From Candidatus Cloacimonadota bacterium (GTDB lineage Bacteria; Cloacimonadota; Cloacimonadia; Cloacimonadales; Cloacimonadaceae), in the NCBI GenBank assembly GCA_030154085.1, contig JASKKR010000012.1:1-51853 (forward strand): DNA of 51,853 nt, read 5' to 3'. The position numbers and the translations under genes are program-made. The notes beneath the pieces were generated by a model. It worked only from the letters and a program-made list of their open reading frames with translations. It had not been told where the DNA came from and ran no database searches. Position 1 is the first letter of the stretch. Each line of letters opens with the position of its first letter. Of the stretch, positions 29,985 to 35,152 are shown in pieces.

Positions 29985-31757
29985 TTAGTTTTTTTGACTT
30001 TTATCGCTGAGTTCAATCCATCGAGATAAGGCAATCTCGTGTTGCTCATTAAGTTTTTCAATTTTTTCCGCCAATGCTGCATATTCATCATGAGAAAGAT
30101 GAGCTTGAGCTAGCTTGTTTTCACATTCAGCCAAGTCATGTTCCAATTTCTCGATCTGGTCACCGAGAAAGGAAAATTCACGCTGTTCGTTATAATTGAG
30201 CCCTTTGGAGTTTGGTTTAGCACGACCGATATTCTTCGGAGGCTTTTGCAGCTTATCTTTTTCTTCTGCTTCATATTTCTTAACCAATAAATAGTCAGAA
30301 TAATTACCGGCAAATTTGCGTATTTTGCCATTCTCGAAGATAAAGAGGTAGTCAATGGTGCGATCCAGGAAAAAGCGATCATGAGAGACCACCAGGAGGC
30401 ATCCTTTGAAGGCATCAAGGTAATCTTCCAAAATTTCCAATGTTTGGATATCAAGGTCGTTTGTCGGCTCATCTAGAATGATAAAGTTTGCACCAAACAT
30501 AAGAGATTTTAGTAGATATAGTCTTTTACGTTCACCGCCAGACAGAGATGAAAGTTTCATCTGCTGCATTTTGCCATCGAAGAGAAAACGAGATAGCATC
30601 TCAGTAGCGGTCACTTTGGAGCCATCGGCAGTGCGGATAGTATCGGCATATTGACTAATATATTCATGGACGCTCAGCTTTGGATCGTAGCTATTTTCTT
30701 CTTGCTTATAGTACGCGAAGTGAGTGTTTATACCGACACGGATGCTACCCGAATCAGGCTTTTCATCGCCTACAATCATGCGCAAAAGGGTAGTCTTGCC
30801 ACATCCGTTTGGTCCGATAATACCAATACGTTCCATAGCTTGAAAATTGTGGTCAAAGTCTTCAAATAGAGTTACCCCAGAATAGGTTTTTTTCAGTTTG
30901 TGTAATTCAAGGATTGTCCTGCCCAATCGATCAGTCTGAAAAGATATGTCAAGATCCTGTTCATTGATGAGATAGCTTTTGCTAAGCAATTCTTTGACTC
31001 TGTCTACATGATATTTTGGCTTAGAAGCTCGCGCTTTTGCACCTCTAGCAAGCCAATTTAATTCTTTGGATAGTTGAGCTTGGCGTCGTGTTTCTTTGCG
31101 AAGATTATCTTGTTCGCGAAGCATCTTACCTTTGATGTATTCGCTGTAGTTGCCATCATAAAAAAAGAGTTTACCGTGTTCTATATTGAGAATTTTGTTG
31201 CAGATAGAATCTAGAAAGTAACGATCGTGAGTCACAAAAATTAGAGTAGTTTTACTTTGGATTAGATAGTCTTGCAACCATTCTACGCTATCAAGATCCA
31301 GATGGTTGGTAGGTTCATCCATGATCAAGAGGTCTGGTTCAGCAGCTAGTACTTTTGCCAAAGACGTTTTTCGCTTTTGCCCACCAGAGAGAAGACCCAT
31401 AGGTGTATCATAGAACTCCATTCCCAATTTGCTAAGGACAGCCTTATAATGGTAGATTTCTTTGCGTTGTGCCGGGTCTTCGGGGATCACGTGTTGCAAA
31501 ACGGTCTGGTTGGGATCAAACTCAGGGTTTTGACGCAAGTAGGCAAGTTTTAGGTCGTTGCGATATGTGATGTGCCCGGAAGAGGGGATTATAGCAGAAC
31601 CAAGTACGTTTAAAAGAGTGGTCTTTCCACAACCGTTAACACCGACGATGCCAAGCTTATCTCCGGCATGGATGCCAAAGGAGGCATCGGAGATGATAGT
31701 TTTATCACCAAATGCAACGGTGACATTTTCAGCTGTAAGGATTACTTCGTTTGCCAT
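29985..31757 (-). CDS. ABC-F family ATPase, Uup-like (590 aa)
   Basis: A soluble protein with two ATP-binding cassettes and no membrane helices. ABC-F proteins act on the ribosomal E-site; Uup-like members help rescue or remodel ribosomes. Visible features are two Walker A (GVNGCGKT near 39 and GPNGCGKT near 315), two signatures (LSGGQKRK, LSGGERKR), two MDEPTNHLD / LDEPTNDLD Walker B motifs, and the inter-domain linker ARGAKARASKPK. The C-terminal coiled coil (about 515-585) matches Uup. The ATG at 31757 follows TTG; no clear ribosome-binding site is seen. It begins 19 nt below tRNA-Arg, so it may be expressed from the same promoter. A 7-bp hairpin AATTTCC/GGAAATT overlaps its stop. Confidence 0.92.
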   Translation of the reverse strand: MANEVILTAENVTVAFGDKTIISDASFGIHAGDKLGIVGVNGCGKTTLLNVLGSAIIPSSGHITYRNDLKLAYLRQNPEFDPNQTVLQHVIPEDPAQRKEIYHYKAVLSKLGMEFYDTPMGLLSGGQKRKTSLAKVLAAEPDLLIMDEPTNHLDLDSVEWLQDYLIQSKTTLIFVTHDRYFLDSICNKILNIEHGKLFFYDGNYSEYIKGKMLREQDNLRKETRRQAQLSKELNWLARGAKARASKPKYHVDRVKELLSKSYLINEQDLDISFQTDRLGRTILELHKLKKTYSGVTLFEDFDHNFQAMERIGIIGPNGCGKTTLLRMIVGDEKPDSGSIRVGINTHFAYYKQEENSYDPKLSVHEYISQYADTIRTADGSKVTATEMLSRFLFDGKMQQMKLSSLSGGERKRLYLLKSLMFGANFIILDEPTNDLDIQTLEILEDYLDAFKGCLLVVSHDRFFLDRTIDYLFIFENGKIRKFAGNYSDYLLVKKYEAEEKDKLQKPPKNIGRAKPNSKGLNYNEQREFSFLGDQIEKLEHDLAECENKLAQAHLSHDEYAALAEKIEKLNEQHEIALSRWIELSDKSQKN

Positions 31758-31776
31758 CAATCAAAGATAATGATAG

Positions 31777-31853
31777 TGGCGTCCCTGAGGCGATTCGAAC
31801 GCCTGACCTTCACCTTCGGAGGGTGCCACTCTATCCAGCTGAGCTACAGGGAC
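31777..31853 (-). tRNA. tRNA-Arg (anticodon CCG)
   Basis: A 77-nt cloverleaf read on the minus strand. The acceptor stem GTCCCTG pairs with CAGGGAC, D-arm is GCTC...GAGT, anticodon loop CTCCGAA gives CCG (reads CGG, Arg), T-arm AGGCG TTCGAAT CGCCT. Discriminator G73 and encoded CCA follow. The anticodon stem has a G27-A43 mismatch. Confidence 0.95.
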
Positions 31854-31866
31854 GCAATCTGTGTTC

Positions 31867-31895
31867 ATAGATTTTCCATGATGGTAATCTGTCAA
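31867..31895 (-). promoter_or_regulatory. Putative promoter for tRNA-Arg (and ABC-F)
   Basis: TTGACA (31895-31890) is followed after 17 bp by ATCTAT (31872-31867), placing transcription start near 31860, a few bases before the tRNA. The TTGACA contains the thyX stop codon TGA. The -35 is good; the -10 is weak. Confidence 0.4.
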
Positions 31896-33310
31896 TAGAT
31901 TTGCTTGAATTCGCTTTTGCCACAGAGCAAACGAGCAGCATTTGGAGCTAGATTTGTAACGGTGTTGCAAATATCTTTTGAGAGCTCGCGGATCTCCCAT
32001 TGAGCATGGCTATCGCTGCGAAGACGTACAAAATGATATATTTCCCTGAGGTTCATTTTAGCGTATATTCTACAAAGATTTGCATTTAACTTTAGATAAC
32101 CACGAATGTGGCTGATCTTGTTAGGAATGGCATCCGATAGGCAATCAATATCATGTTGAAGTCCTTTCCAGATGTCAGCCCTATTGATCTCCTCTATCGC
32201 AGAAGGGATGTTCATATAATTTGACTCTCCACCTTTTTTGAGGAGAGTACACATTCTATGTCGTTTAAATTGTGCCCAGCAAGATTCACTCATGATCAAC
32301 TCAAATTCAAATTCTGCTAATTCAAAAGCGCGAGGGCATTTGTCCCAAACTTTCATTCCTCTAAAGATCTGTTGCCAGAGCTGTTCTTTGGCGATTTTTT
32401 GTAAACGTGAGACGGCCTCAAGATTACTGTCCCAAGCCAGTTCACCTTGGCTGTAGATAATTCCTGCAAGGATCTTATCATCAGCGTTTTTGGTGTATGA
32501 GATAAGGTGGACTTTAGTCTGTAGGTCAAGTTCAGCCACCCAAGGAAAATCTTGTTGCAAGAAGCTACTAAGACCAACAGTTTGGATGTCTATTTTACCA
32601 GTGAATTCATCCTTTTCTGTATATTTTACTAAGGATGGAGCTATTGGTTTGACGGCATGTATGATTTTCTTTTTGATTTCCTGAGCTTCAGATATTGGGC
32701 TTTTACTCAAGCGCTGCAGGAGGTTTTCTAAATTGCGAGCATTCATGGTCATACCCATTTGCGTTTTTGTGGCAAGAGGTAAGATATAGCGTGCATCTTC
32801 CTTAGCACGAGATTCTCTATCACGGGTTTTGAGTTCAGGAAATTCAGTTGCATACTTTTGGCTTAAGACTGATACGCATTGGGAATATTCATCAAATAGA
32901 GCTTGTACTAGCTCATTGTAAGCTTTTTTAAGTTTTGCTCGGTTTTTTAATTCTGATGGCACTACCCAGCTTTGCTTGAAGGTTACATACCTTTGAGATT
33001 TTTCAGTAAAAGAAGCAAGTCGGCTGCGTTGGATTTGCTCAGTGATTAGTCTTGAAACATCAATGATATCAAAATTGAATACAGCATGCTCTGCAACAGA
33101 AGCATGTCCCATATCAAAGATAATCTTTTGGTTTGTTTCCCGGGCTTTTGCAACTTCCGTGAGAGCTTCTTGGCGGAGCTGATCAACCCGTTTTTGACTT
33201 CTGCTTATTCTCGCATATGCAGCGGAAATCACTTCAGGAGTTGCACTTTGACTGTCAAGTTTATTTATTAGACTGCTATCTATATTATATCCGGCTAGAA
33301 GGATTTTCAT
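31892..33310 (-). CDS. Two-domain ThyX-like flavin-dependent thymidylate synthase (472 aa)
   Basis: ThyX makes dTMP from dUMP using FAD, NAD(P)H and methylene-tetrahydrofolate. The usual enzyme is 220-250 aa; here two ThyX-like units are joined. Unit 1 (about 1-230) has GHASVAEHAVFNF and the motif at 95-108 RSRLASFTEKSQRY, matching RHRxxSxNExSxRY except Ser for His and Thr for Asn, plus TMNARNLENLLQRL. Unit 2 (about 255-472) has PRAFELAEFEFEL, RHRM at about 350-353 (His kept) but loses the SxNExSxR part, and LREIYHFVRLRSDSHAQWEI. Each half thus keeps what the other lost. It overlaps deoC by 4 bp (ATGA). Whether the protein is catalytically active is uncertain. Confidence 0.85.
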   Translation of the reverse strand: MKILLAGYNIDSSLINKLDSQSATPEVISAAYARISRSQKRVDQLRQEALTEVAKARETNQKIIFDMGHASVAEHAVFNFDIIDVSRLITEQIQRSRLASFTEKSQRYVTFKQSWVVPSELKNRAKLKKAYNELVQALFDEYSQCVSVLSQKYATEFPELKTRDRESRAKEDARYILPLATKTQMGMTMNARNLENLLQRLSKSPISEAQEIKKKIIHAVKPIAPSLVKYTEKDEFTGKIDIQTVGLSSFLQQDFPWVAELDLQTKVHLISYTKNADDKILAGIIYSQGELAWDSNLEAVSRLQKIAKEQLWQQIFRGMKVWDKCPRAFELAEFEFELIMSESCWAQFKRHRMCTLLKKGGESNYMNIPSAIEEINRADIWKGLQHDIDCLSDAIPNKISHIRGYLKLNANLCRIYAKMNLREIYHFVRLRSDSHAQWEIRELSKDICNTVTNLAPNAARLLCGKSEFKQIY

Positions 33311-34095
33311 GATGTTTTGACCGTTAGGAGAGCTTCCACACTGCTAGCTCCAATTCGGCTAGCTCCTGCTTCCAACATGGCTTTAGCGCTCTGAGCATCT
33401 CGGATTCCGCCGCTTGCCTTGACTCCAAATTTGGGACCTACTACTTCCCGCATCACTACTATGTCTTCCACTCTGGCTCCTGCACTGCCAAATCCAGTGG
33501 AAGTTTTCACATACTTAGCTCCAGCTTTCTTTGCAATAAGGCAGGAAAGAATGATTTCATCACGATTTAGATAACAGGTTTCAAGGATTACTTTTAGTAA
33601 TTTCTTGTATTCGATACATTGGATGGCTACAGCCTTTATGGTTTCAATGACCATATCCCAATCCTTGCTTTTGAAAGCGGCGAGGTTTTGGACCATATCT
33701 ACTTCATCTACTCCGGCTTCCAAGACTGCTCTGGCTTCTTTCTTGACGGCTAATCTGCTTCCCGCACCTAGAGGAAAATTGACTACAGTGCAGCTTTTTA
33801 TACTTTCATCAAGCTCATTTTTGATCTGAGGGATATAGTATGAATTGATGCATACGGAAGCAGTTTGATATTTGTTTGCTGTATGACACAAAGCGCTGAC
33901 ATCAGAATGGGCTGCTTCTGCTTTGAGCAAAGTGGCATCTATATGTGCTGCGATGCCCTTGGCTTCATCAAAGAGTTCGTCATTTTCATCAGCACGGCAT
34001 TTTGCGCAGTGCAGACATATGGTGTGTCCACCTCCACAACGGGCAAGATCTTCACCTCCAAAAAAATCACGGGCGATTATTTCGATATCTTTCAT
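33307..34095 (-). CDS. deoC: Deoxyribose-phosphate aldolase with N-terminal Cys cluster (262 aa)
   Basis: Splits 2-deoxyribose-5-phosphate to acetaldehyde and glyceraldehyde-3-phosphate in deoxynucleoside salvage. Visible features are IDATLL near residue 53, Asp in EVDMVQN, the Schiff-base lysine in LKVILETCYL, and the second lysine in VKTSTGFG, followed by KASGGIR. The core is typical, but the first 50 residues are an extension with cysteines at 20, 27, 30 and 33 (CGGGHTICLHCAKC), spacing that could bind metal. The start is ATG 34095, with AAGGA 8 nt upstream; an in-frame start at 34167 would lie inside rlmN. It follows rlmN after 4 nt and overlaps thyX. Confidence 0.93.
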   Translation of the reverse strand: MKDIEIIARDFFGGEDLARCGGGHTICLHCAKCRADENDELFDEAKGIAAHIDATLLKAEAAHSDVSALCHTANKYQTASVCINSYYIPQIKNELDESIKSCTVVNFPLGAGSRLAVKKEARAVLEAGVDEVDMVQNLAAFKSKDWDMVIETIKAVAIQCIEYKKLLKVILETCYLNRDEIILSCLIAKKAGAKYVKTSTGFGSAGARVEDIVVMREVVGPKFGVKASGGIRDAQSAKAMLEAGASRIGASSVEALLTVKTS

Positions 34096-34099
34096 AACT

Positions 34100-35152
34100 T
34101 CAATCCTTAAGAGTATTTGTTTTATTGAGTGACTGGTGAGATGTCGAAAGCTGCCCACAAGCTCCACATACTTCGGCTCCTCGGCTTCGTCTGAGGGTTA
34201 TTGCTTGATTAATGGATTGGGCAGTCTTCAAAAAACTCTCAATTTCAACCTCGGTAGGGCTGCGATAGGGAAGAGTTGGCACTTCATTGTAGGGGATAAA
34301 ATTTAACTTACATGAAAGATCCCCTACAAATCGTTTCAGAGCTTTGATATCCAAAGGGTCCATATTGATCTCAGGGATAAGGATGTATTCGAAGGTTACC
34401 CTAAAACTACTTTTTCTTAAGTAATATAAGATTGCTTGTTTAAGCTGGGATAAGGTATATTTTTGGTTGATTGGCATCAAGAGATTTCGTTTTTCATCAA
34501 TCGCAGAATTGAGTGAGACAGCTAACTTGGCTTTTATTCCGCTATCAGCTAGGCTAATGATGCCAGAGGGAACGCCACATGTAGAAATTGTTGTTCGTCG
34601 TGGACTAAAGCTCAGGGTTTCTTCATCTTGGATTATTTGGAGGCTTTGGATGAGATTGGCGAGATTGTCCATTGGCTCTCCCATCCCCATAAAGACCAAG
34701 TTTGTAAGGCGCGCGGGTGCAACAATCTGAGCAGCGAGCAAGATCTGTCCTATAATCTCATGAACATTAAGATTCCTTTCGAGACCCATCTTCCCGGTGG
34801 CACAAAAGATGCAGGCTCTGGCGCATCCTACTTGAGATGAAATACAAAGGGTCTGCTTTTTCCCATCAGGGATTAAAACCATTTCGATGATTGATCCATC
34901 TGCCAACCCCAGCACATACTTTGTAGTTTGATCTTTTGCCGTGCGGGTAGTAATGATCTTGGGCAGGGCAAAATCAAAGCGTCCTCTGAGATAGTCCTTT
35001 AAATCATTTGGTAGGTCAGTCATTTGATCGGGATCAAAGACAAACTTCTCATATAACCATTTCATCAGTTGGCGATAACGGTAACCGGGAAAAGTTTTAG
35101 CAAGATCCTTTTTGATCTCTTCTGGTCTTTTCGAGAAGATACTGTCTAGCAT
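34100..35152 (-). CDS. rlmN: RlmN, rRNA/tRNA adenine C2-methyltransferase (350 aa)
   Basis: A radical SAM enzyme that methylates A2503 of 23S rRNA and A37 of some tRNAs. Visible features are the N-terminal helical domain, the radical SAM motif CARACIFC (Cys110, 114, 117), the GMGEPM segment, TISTCGVPSGI, AVSLNSA, and the C-terminal GAEVCGACGQL that carries the mechanistic methyl-shuttle cysteine. The absence of Cfr-type features points to RlmN. The ATG at 35152 overlaps the end of ricT by 7 bp, so expression is linked. Confidence 0.96.
   Translation of the reverse strand: MLDSIFSKRPEEIKKDLAKTFPGYRYRQLMKWLYEKFVFDPDQMTDLPNDLKDYLRGRFDFALPKIITTRTAKDQTTKYVLGLADGSIIEMVLIPDGKKQTLCISSQVGCARACIFCATGKMGLERNLNVHEIIGQILLAAQIVAPARLTNLVFMGMGEPMDNLANLIQSLQIIQDEETLSFSPRRTTISTCGVPSGIISLADSGIKAKLAVSLNSAIDEKRNLLMPINQKYTLSQLKQAILYYLRKSSFRVTFEYILIPEINMDPLDIKALKRFVGDLSCKLNFIPYNEVPTLPYRSPTEVEIESFLKTAQSINQAITLRRSRGAEVCGACGQLSTSHQSLNKTNTLKD

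Follow-up and report, generated by a model that had tools for sequence, protein, structure and literature searches.

The locus considered here raises the question of whether a protein composed of two ThyX-like units, each of which has lost a different part of the ThyX signature, can still be a thymidylate synthase and, if so, how its active sites are built. The gene lies in a window of 51,853 nucleotides (the whole stretch of DNA that was analysed) of contig JASKKR010000012.1 from a Candidatus Cloacimonadota bacterium. A preliminary description made from the letters of this DNA had proposed either a pseudo-dimer with one hybrid site per two units or a protein that had lost its activity or gained a new one.

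Gene and Two-Unit Architecture

The tandem ThyX gene occupies positions 31892..33310, precisely the reading frame given in the preliminary description; its strand is minus, with the ATG at 33310 and the stop codon at 31892-31894, and the product is a protein of 472 aa (P0001). All coordinates given below for parts of the gene refer to the minus strand. The presence of two ThyX-like units in this single protein, claimed earlier from motifs, is borne out by profiles and by the fold of both halves. The Pfam profile Thy1 (PF02511) matches the protein in two stretches (E 2e-62, 210.7 bits, cut-off 24.8), TIGR02170 gives 159.2 bits (cut-off 87.9), and in the Thy1 search of the genome the N-terminal unit scored 144 bits and the C-terminal one 74 bits, each above the cut-off of 24.8. 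Unit 1 (residues 1-230, positions 32621..33310), with the Thy1 match at residues 22-226, and unit 2 (residues 261-472, positions 31895..32530), with the 74-bit match, both have the ThyX fold and are joined by a linker (residues 231-260, positions 32531..32620) whose pLDDT is below 50.

In the AF2 model of the full protein (nine sequences), both halves are confident (pLDDT 80.5, pTM 0.74), and all of the best matches listed by Foldseek for the whole model against the PDB are ThyX crystal structures. As for the C-terminal half, whose structure had been proposed as a check of the two-unit claim, residues 262-472 modelled separately (pLDDT 84.8) do adopt the ThyX fold, and only ThyX was found among the Foldseek matches listed for this model (TM 0.62-0.70, query-normalised). 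When the two halves of the query were aligned directly with each other, the score was 49, near chance, shuffled sequences reaching 50 at most; the repeat is thus established by profiles and fold and not by pairwise identity.

Published Subunit Roles

The ThyX site is formed by three subunits, as reviewed for the structures from Mycobacterium tuberculosis (Mtb) and Helicobacter pylori (PMC6514825). According to this review, in site 1 subunit A provides the RHR motif (Mtb 95-97) and Arg199, subunit B provides Ser71 and Arg190, and subunit C provides Arg87, Ser105, Arg107, the Tyr108 lid and the flavin contact of residue 103 (all in Mtb numbering). In the ThyX of PBCV-1, one monomer contributes Gln75 and Arg182 (equivalent to Arg174 of Thermotoga maritima, Tm), and Ser88 and Gln89 belong to a different monomer (PMC3498832). 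A third monomer supplies His53 in T. maritima, where this residue contacts Tyr91 as well as the flavin or the folate (PMC11940539). According to docking, the phosphate of dUMP is bound by Arg172 of Mtb (Tm 147; PMC9571937). In the T. maritima numbering, which is used below and was checked against 1KQ4 (with one C-terminal mismatch, outside the region used), role A comprises RHR and Arg174, role B comprises His53, Ser55 and Arg165, and role C comprises the dUMP loop with Ser88, Arg90 and Tyr91; this assignment is carried over from homologs at about 20-25% identity, and for R147 and S30 the donor subunit is unstated in the cited structural texts.

Distribution of the Active-Site Residues

In unit 1 of the query the residues of role B are kept in the stretch G68-H69-A-S71-V-A-E74-H75 (33086..33109; H53 and T55 of Tm, H69 and S71 of Mtb). 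Those of role C are kept as Arg87 (33050..33052), equivalent to the dUMP phosphate-binding Arg87 of Mtb, and as the dUMP/active-site loop SFTEKSQRY (S100-Y108, positions 32987..33013; E86, S88, R90 and Y91 of Tm). The query Arg174 (32789..32791), equivalent to the dUMP phosphate-binding residue Tm R147/Mtb R172, is kept as well. Role A is lost: the RHR motif is degenerate, R95-S96-R97 (33020..33028), with Ser for His, and in the late motif TMNARNLENLLQRL (residues 188-201, positions 32708..32749) the N163 and R165 equivalents are kept and Leu stands at the position of Tm R174. Unit 2, for its part, keeps role A both in Q347-F-K-R350-H351-R352 (32255..32272; Q75, R78, H79 and R80 of Tm) and in NLREIYHFVRLRSDSHAQWEIR (31988..32053; N163, R165, R174 and H178 of Tm). 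There K349-R350-H351-R352-M353 is followed by CTLLKKGGESN, with no SxNExSxRY, and HAQWEIR occupies residues 435-441. The motifs quoted in the preliminary description were all found where it had put them. The signature RHRx7S is absent as one continuous stretch, unit 1 having RSR with the Ser loop and unit 2 having RHR without the loop; when the whole chain is counted, every element of it is present.

Our screening yielded 102 tandem proteins. Group I, the query's type, includes 93 of them (85 phylum species with the query's among them, two Aminicenantes and six viral contigs); group II consists of three (Parabacteroides and Euzebya plasmids and one viral contig), group III of five (Bacillus and Paenibacillus plasmids and one viral contig), and group IV of the single sequence L098. 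Per-protein scoring revealed the complete set of RHR and R174 in unit 2 of all 102 proteins and in unit 1 of none, and the complete set of S88, R90, Y91 and R147 in unit 1 of all 102 and in unit 2 of none. Recurring in 102 of 102 proteins, the complementary losses are not peculiar to the query sequence.

Within group I, unit 1 invariably (93/93) has R28, S30, H53, E58, H59, the equivalent of Mtb Arg87, R80, E86, S88, R90, Y91, R147 and R165, and Ser55 is present in 92 of the 93. His79 is lost, histidine not being among the six commonest letters at this position (n=93); the first Arg of RHR is retained in 49/93 and the third in 93/93, and Gln75 is lost save in a few sequences, the query's included. 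In the MAFFT alignment the R174 column of unit 1 contained an Arg, at the cost of a gap at L173; the ungapped count from N163 gives L, M or F at position N163+11 and never Arg, and R174 was for this reason scored as lost in unit 1 of the group. An Arg one residue ahead of the R174 position is found in 75 of the 93 sequences. Unit 2 of the same proteins has R78, H79, R80, N163, R165, R174 and Q180 in 93/93 and Q75 in 92/93; it has lost the S88/R90/Y91 loop, R147, the H53/S55 motif, the stretch of which is a gap without counterpart, and Arg87 (0/93). R80 and R165 are retained by both units. His178 was dropped as a marker, as it is also absent from the ThyX of H. pylori and from several single-domain ThyX proteins. 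In group II, the role assignment is less clean, because His53 is changed to Asp, Arg165 to Gln and Arg87 to Asn.

To judge from the aligned proteins, the residues missing from each unit are those of the role that the other unit would perform. One might nevertheless suppose that unit 1 works by itself as a normal ThyX with complete sites of its own, unit 2 being a structural or regulatory appendage. Such a supposition would agree with the higher Thy1 score of unit 1 and with its retained dUMP loop; moreover, a single-domain viral ThyX (L111, IMGVR_UViG_3300033153_007861) has RSR for RHR and retains the other motif residues, so that Ser96 alone need not kill a site. However, the RHR and R174 set is complete in unit 1 of none of the 102 proteins, the first Arg of RHR is also missing from unit 1 in group III and in several viral members, and no reason would be left for the retention of Q75, R78, H79, R80 and R174 by unit 2 in 92-93 of the 93 group I proteins. 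We consider this explanation quite unlikely.

Proposed Shared Site

The residue set that contacts flavin and dUMP in one site is full only when both units are combined. We propose, with a probability of about four in five, that the protein is a working ThyX, the only recognisable de novo source of dTMP in its genome, organized as a fused pseudo-heterotetramer with hybrid sites. Through an ancient duplication and fusion, the homotetramer would have given way to a pseudo-heterotetramer in which two chains provide four units. Each working site would receive RHR, Gln75 and Arg174 from a unit 2, for the binding of the flavin phosphate and ribityl and the activation of uracil; the dUMP loop Ser88/Arg90/Tyr91, together with Arg87 (Mtb), from one unit 1; and, for the side of the flavin and the folate, His53, Ser55 and Arg165 from a unit 1.

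As to the geometry, in a tetramer of 222 symmetry FAD-A would use subunits A, B and C, FAD-B would use B, A and D, FAD-C would use C, D and A, and FAD-D would use D, C and B. Since H53 and S55 occur only in unit 1 (group I), the B role should belong to unit 1; with the A role assigned to unit 2 and the B and C roles to unit 1, subunits A and D would be unit 2 and subunits B and C unit 1. Sites A and D would then be complete, and in sites B and C the residues specific to each of the three roles would be missing. The arrangement in which A and B are both unit 2 was discarded, as the sites having the A and C roles would be without H53/S55. The single fitting 222 arrangement thus predicts two full and two dead sites per two chains, that is, one working site per chain. 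Partial function of the remaining sites B and C is possible, given the neighbouring Arg in most group I unit 1 sequences and the first RHR Arg in about half of them. We accordingly favor the pseudo-dimer of the preliminary description, in which two units together make one hybrid site, as the residues match the published roles and the genome has no other recognisable synthase.

Thymidylate Supply in the Genome and the Phylum

The assembly has a completeness of 99.75% and a contamination of 0.39%. Profile searches of this genome found no ThyX besides the two tandem units, which are the sole Thy1 matches, no ThyA and no thymidine kinase (PF00265); DHFR is present. The separate thyA or single-domain thyX, for which a search had been suggested, is therefore represented by neither gene in the genome.

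Among the 125 phylum species, ThyX is present in 105 (68 of the 71 good genomes), and tandem thyX is near-universal in the phylum. ThyA is present in 7/125 genomes, five of the matches being strong; three of these genomes (G060, G105 and G106) have strong ThyA and no ThyX. One more genome with strong ThyA, G059, encodes an aberrant single-domain ThyX-like protein of 209 aa (L007, L034), and no tandem ThyX was found in it, which looks like a replacement of the tandem gene. Neither ThyX nor ThyA matches were obtained in G040 and G073 (99% and 94% complete), which may reflect either assembly gaps or further replacement.

The loss of thymidylate synthase activity, in which case the protein would be a pseudoenzyme or a regulator and dTMP would come from elsewhere, could be suspected from the fact that each half is without motif residues usually held necessary in one chain. 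Against this stand the absence of ThyA, other ThyX and thymidine kinase from the searched genome, the intactness and near-universality of the gene in the phylum together with the occurrence of ThyA in three of the species without ThyX, and the invariant catalytic residues distributed between the units. The lost activity considered in the preliminary description is thus disfavored, the protein being the sole recognisable thymidylate synthase in this genome and in nearly all of the phylum, and we regard it as highly improbable.

Directly upstream of thyX, on the same minus strand, lies a deoC-like gene (33307..34167; named from motifs), which overlaps thyX by the four bases ATGA and likely forms an operon with it. 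The deoC-like motif was found in the upstream flank, on the same strand, in 26 of the 26 phylum loci with flanks. Just downstream of thyX there is a tRNA-Arg (CCG) gene (31777-31853, minus strand), and beyond it a gene of an ABC-F-like protein (29985-31760).

This context also bears on a possible change of substrate, i.e., on whether the protein could be a flavin-dependent C5-methylase acting on, for instance, UMP instead of dUMP. A precedent may be seen in PolB, an unusual methylase reported to act on C-5 of UMP (PMC5003785), and the active site is rebuilt in the tandem protein. In that case, however, the genome would have no source of dTMP; besides, the dUMP contacts R78, R87 (Mtb), S88, R90, R147 and R174 are all retained, once each, and the conserved neighbor is deoC-like (in L098, tmk-like). 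Such a change of substrate seems hardly probable at all, and we return to the dUMP-methylating enzyme with shared sites.

History of the Duplication

The tree was computed after removal of the role residues and should be read with some caution, given its 132-column alignment and long branches. In it, the unit 1 sequences of groups I-III fall into a single clade (bootstrap 99, SH-aLRT 95) and their unit 2 sequences into another (91/94). A separate duplication within any one of these three groups was rejected by the AU test (p 0.017, 0.0014 and 0.007). The unit-wise clades and this rejection indicate one ancient split, which preceded the spread of the tandem gene to the phylum, other bacteria, plasmids and large phages.

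The large-phage contigs with tandem ThyX are of 340-470 kb. Three IMG/VR contigs classed as viral (L105, L106 and L107; 340, 372 and 470 kb) carry a full-length group I tandem ThyX and no ThyA, which is due either to acquisition by phages or to misclassification of host DNA. The ~200 kb non-mobilizable plasmids of Bacillus and Paenibacillus (L099-L101 and L103), in which helicase, toprim and DUF1257 genes flank the group III tandem ThyX, look like phage-plasmids; in their ThyX proteins the RHR of unit 1 is wholly gone.

The only group IV sequence, L098 (MT835736.1, 15506-18789), shows the same polarity of losses. Its record was deposited as an unverified phage; the neighboring genes, thymidylate kinase-like and YgjP-type metallopeptidase-like, suggest that it probably derives from the chromosome of a gut bacterium. 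A search for viral relatives of it found none. As L098 shows the same polarity and yet could not be placed in the tree, a second, convergent origin is possible.

Taken together, we think it probable that the tandem proteins constitute a distinct ancient class of thymidylate synthases, in which the site of a homotetramer would be divided between two fused units, leaving one site per chain and half of the original sites dead, with an identical split in at least one bacterial phylum, in Aminicenantes, in plasmids of Bacillota, Bacteroidota and Actinomycetota, and in large phages.

Significance

Tandem ThyX offers a natural separation-of-function experiment in an enzyme that is essential and, elsewhere, serves as a drug target. 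As both units are on one chain, residues of the A and C roles could be mutated independently, which is impossible in a homotetramer, and such mutations of single units could settle the subunit to which each residue belongs, the interdependence of the four sites and the NADPH site. The protein also clearly exemplifies a complementary loss of residues in duplicated subunits, which became fixed early and has persisted across very large distances. As for annotation, pipelines label the tandem proteins as plain ThyX, and a motif check would mark each half as defective.

Comparison with Known Systems

Chlamydia ThyX is reportedly unusually long and biochemically active. Domain-duplicated ThyX proteins were noted in Chloroflexi and "a few other species" and called uncharacterised (Valas and Bourne, 2009, PMC3224940), which is the only mention of tandem or two-domain ThyX that we found in the open-access literature. 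The Chloroflexi proteins, likened here by description only, have the same architecture and are the sole synthase in most of those genomes. The query shares the features by which they were recognized, namely two ThyX domains in one chain and no other ThyX or ThyA. Unlike the present analysis, that work contains no residue analysis or mechanism, and no description of complementary losses or divided roles in ThyX was found in the open-access literature searched. The two-domain architecture was already known, and the divided-role reading appears to be new.

Thy1 of Thermus thermophilus with an extra C-terminal domain (6j61) has the ThyX fold, and among the listed structures it matches the unit 2 model best; in contrast to tandem ThyX, its chain of about 240-270 residues is too short for a second ThyX unit. 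The single-domain ThyX/FDTS (T. maritima TM0449, M. tuberculosis ThyX; PF02511, TIGR02170) resembles the tandem protein in the fold, the set of site residues and the expected reaction, and its site lies at the junction of three subunits, as we assume for tandem ThyX. In the single-domain enzyme, however, every subunit performs all roles and the four sites are equal, whereas in the tandem one the roles would be divided and only two of the four sites could be completed.
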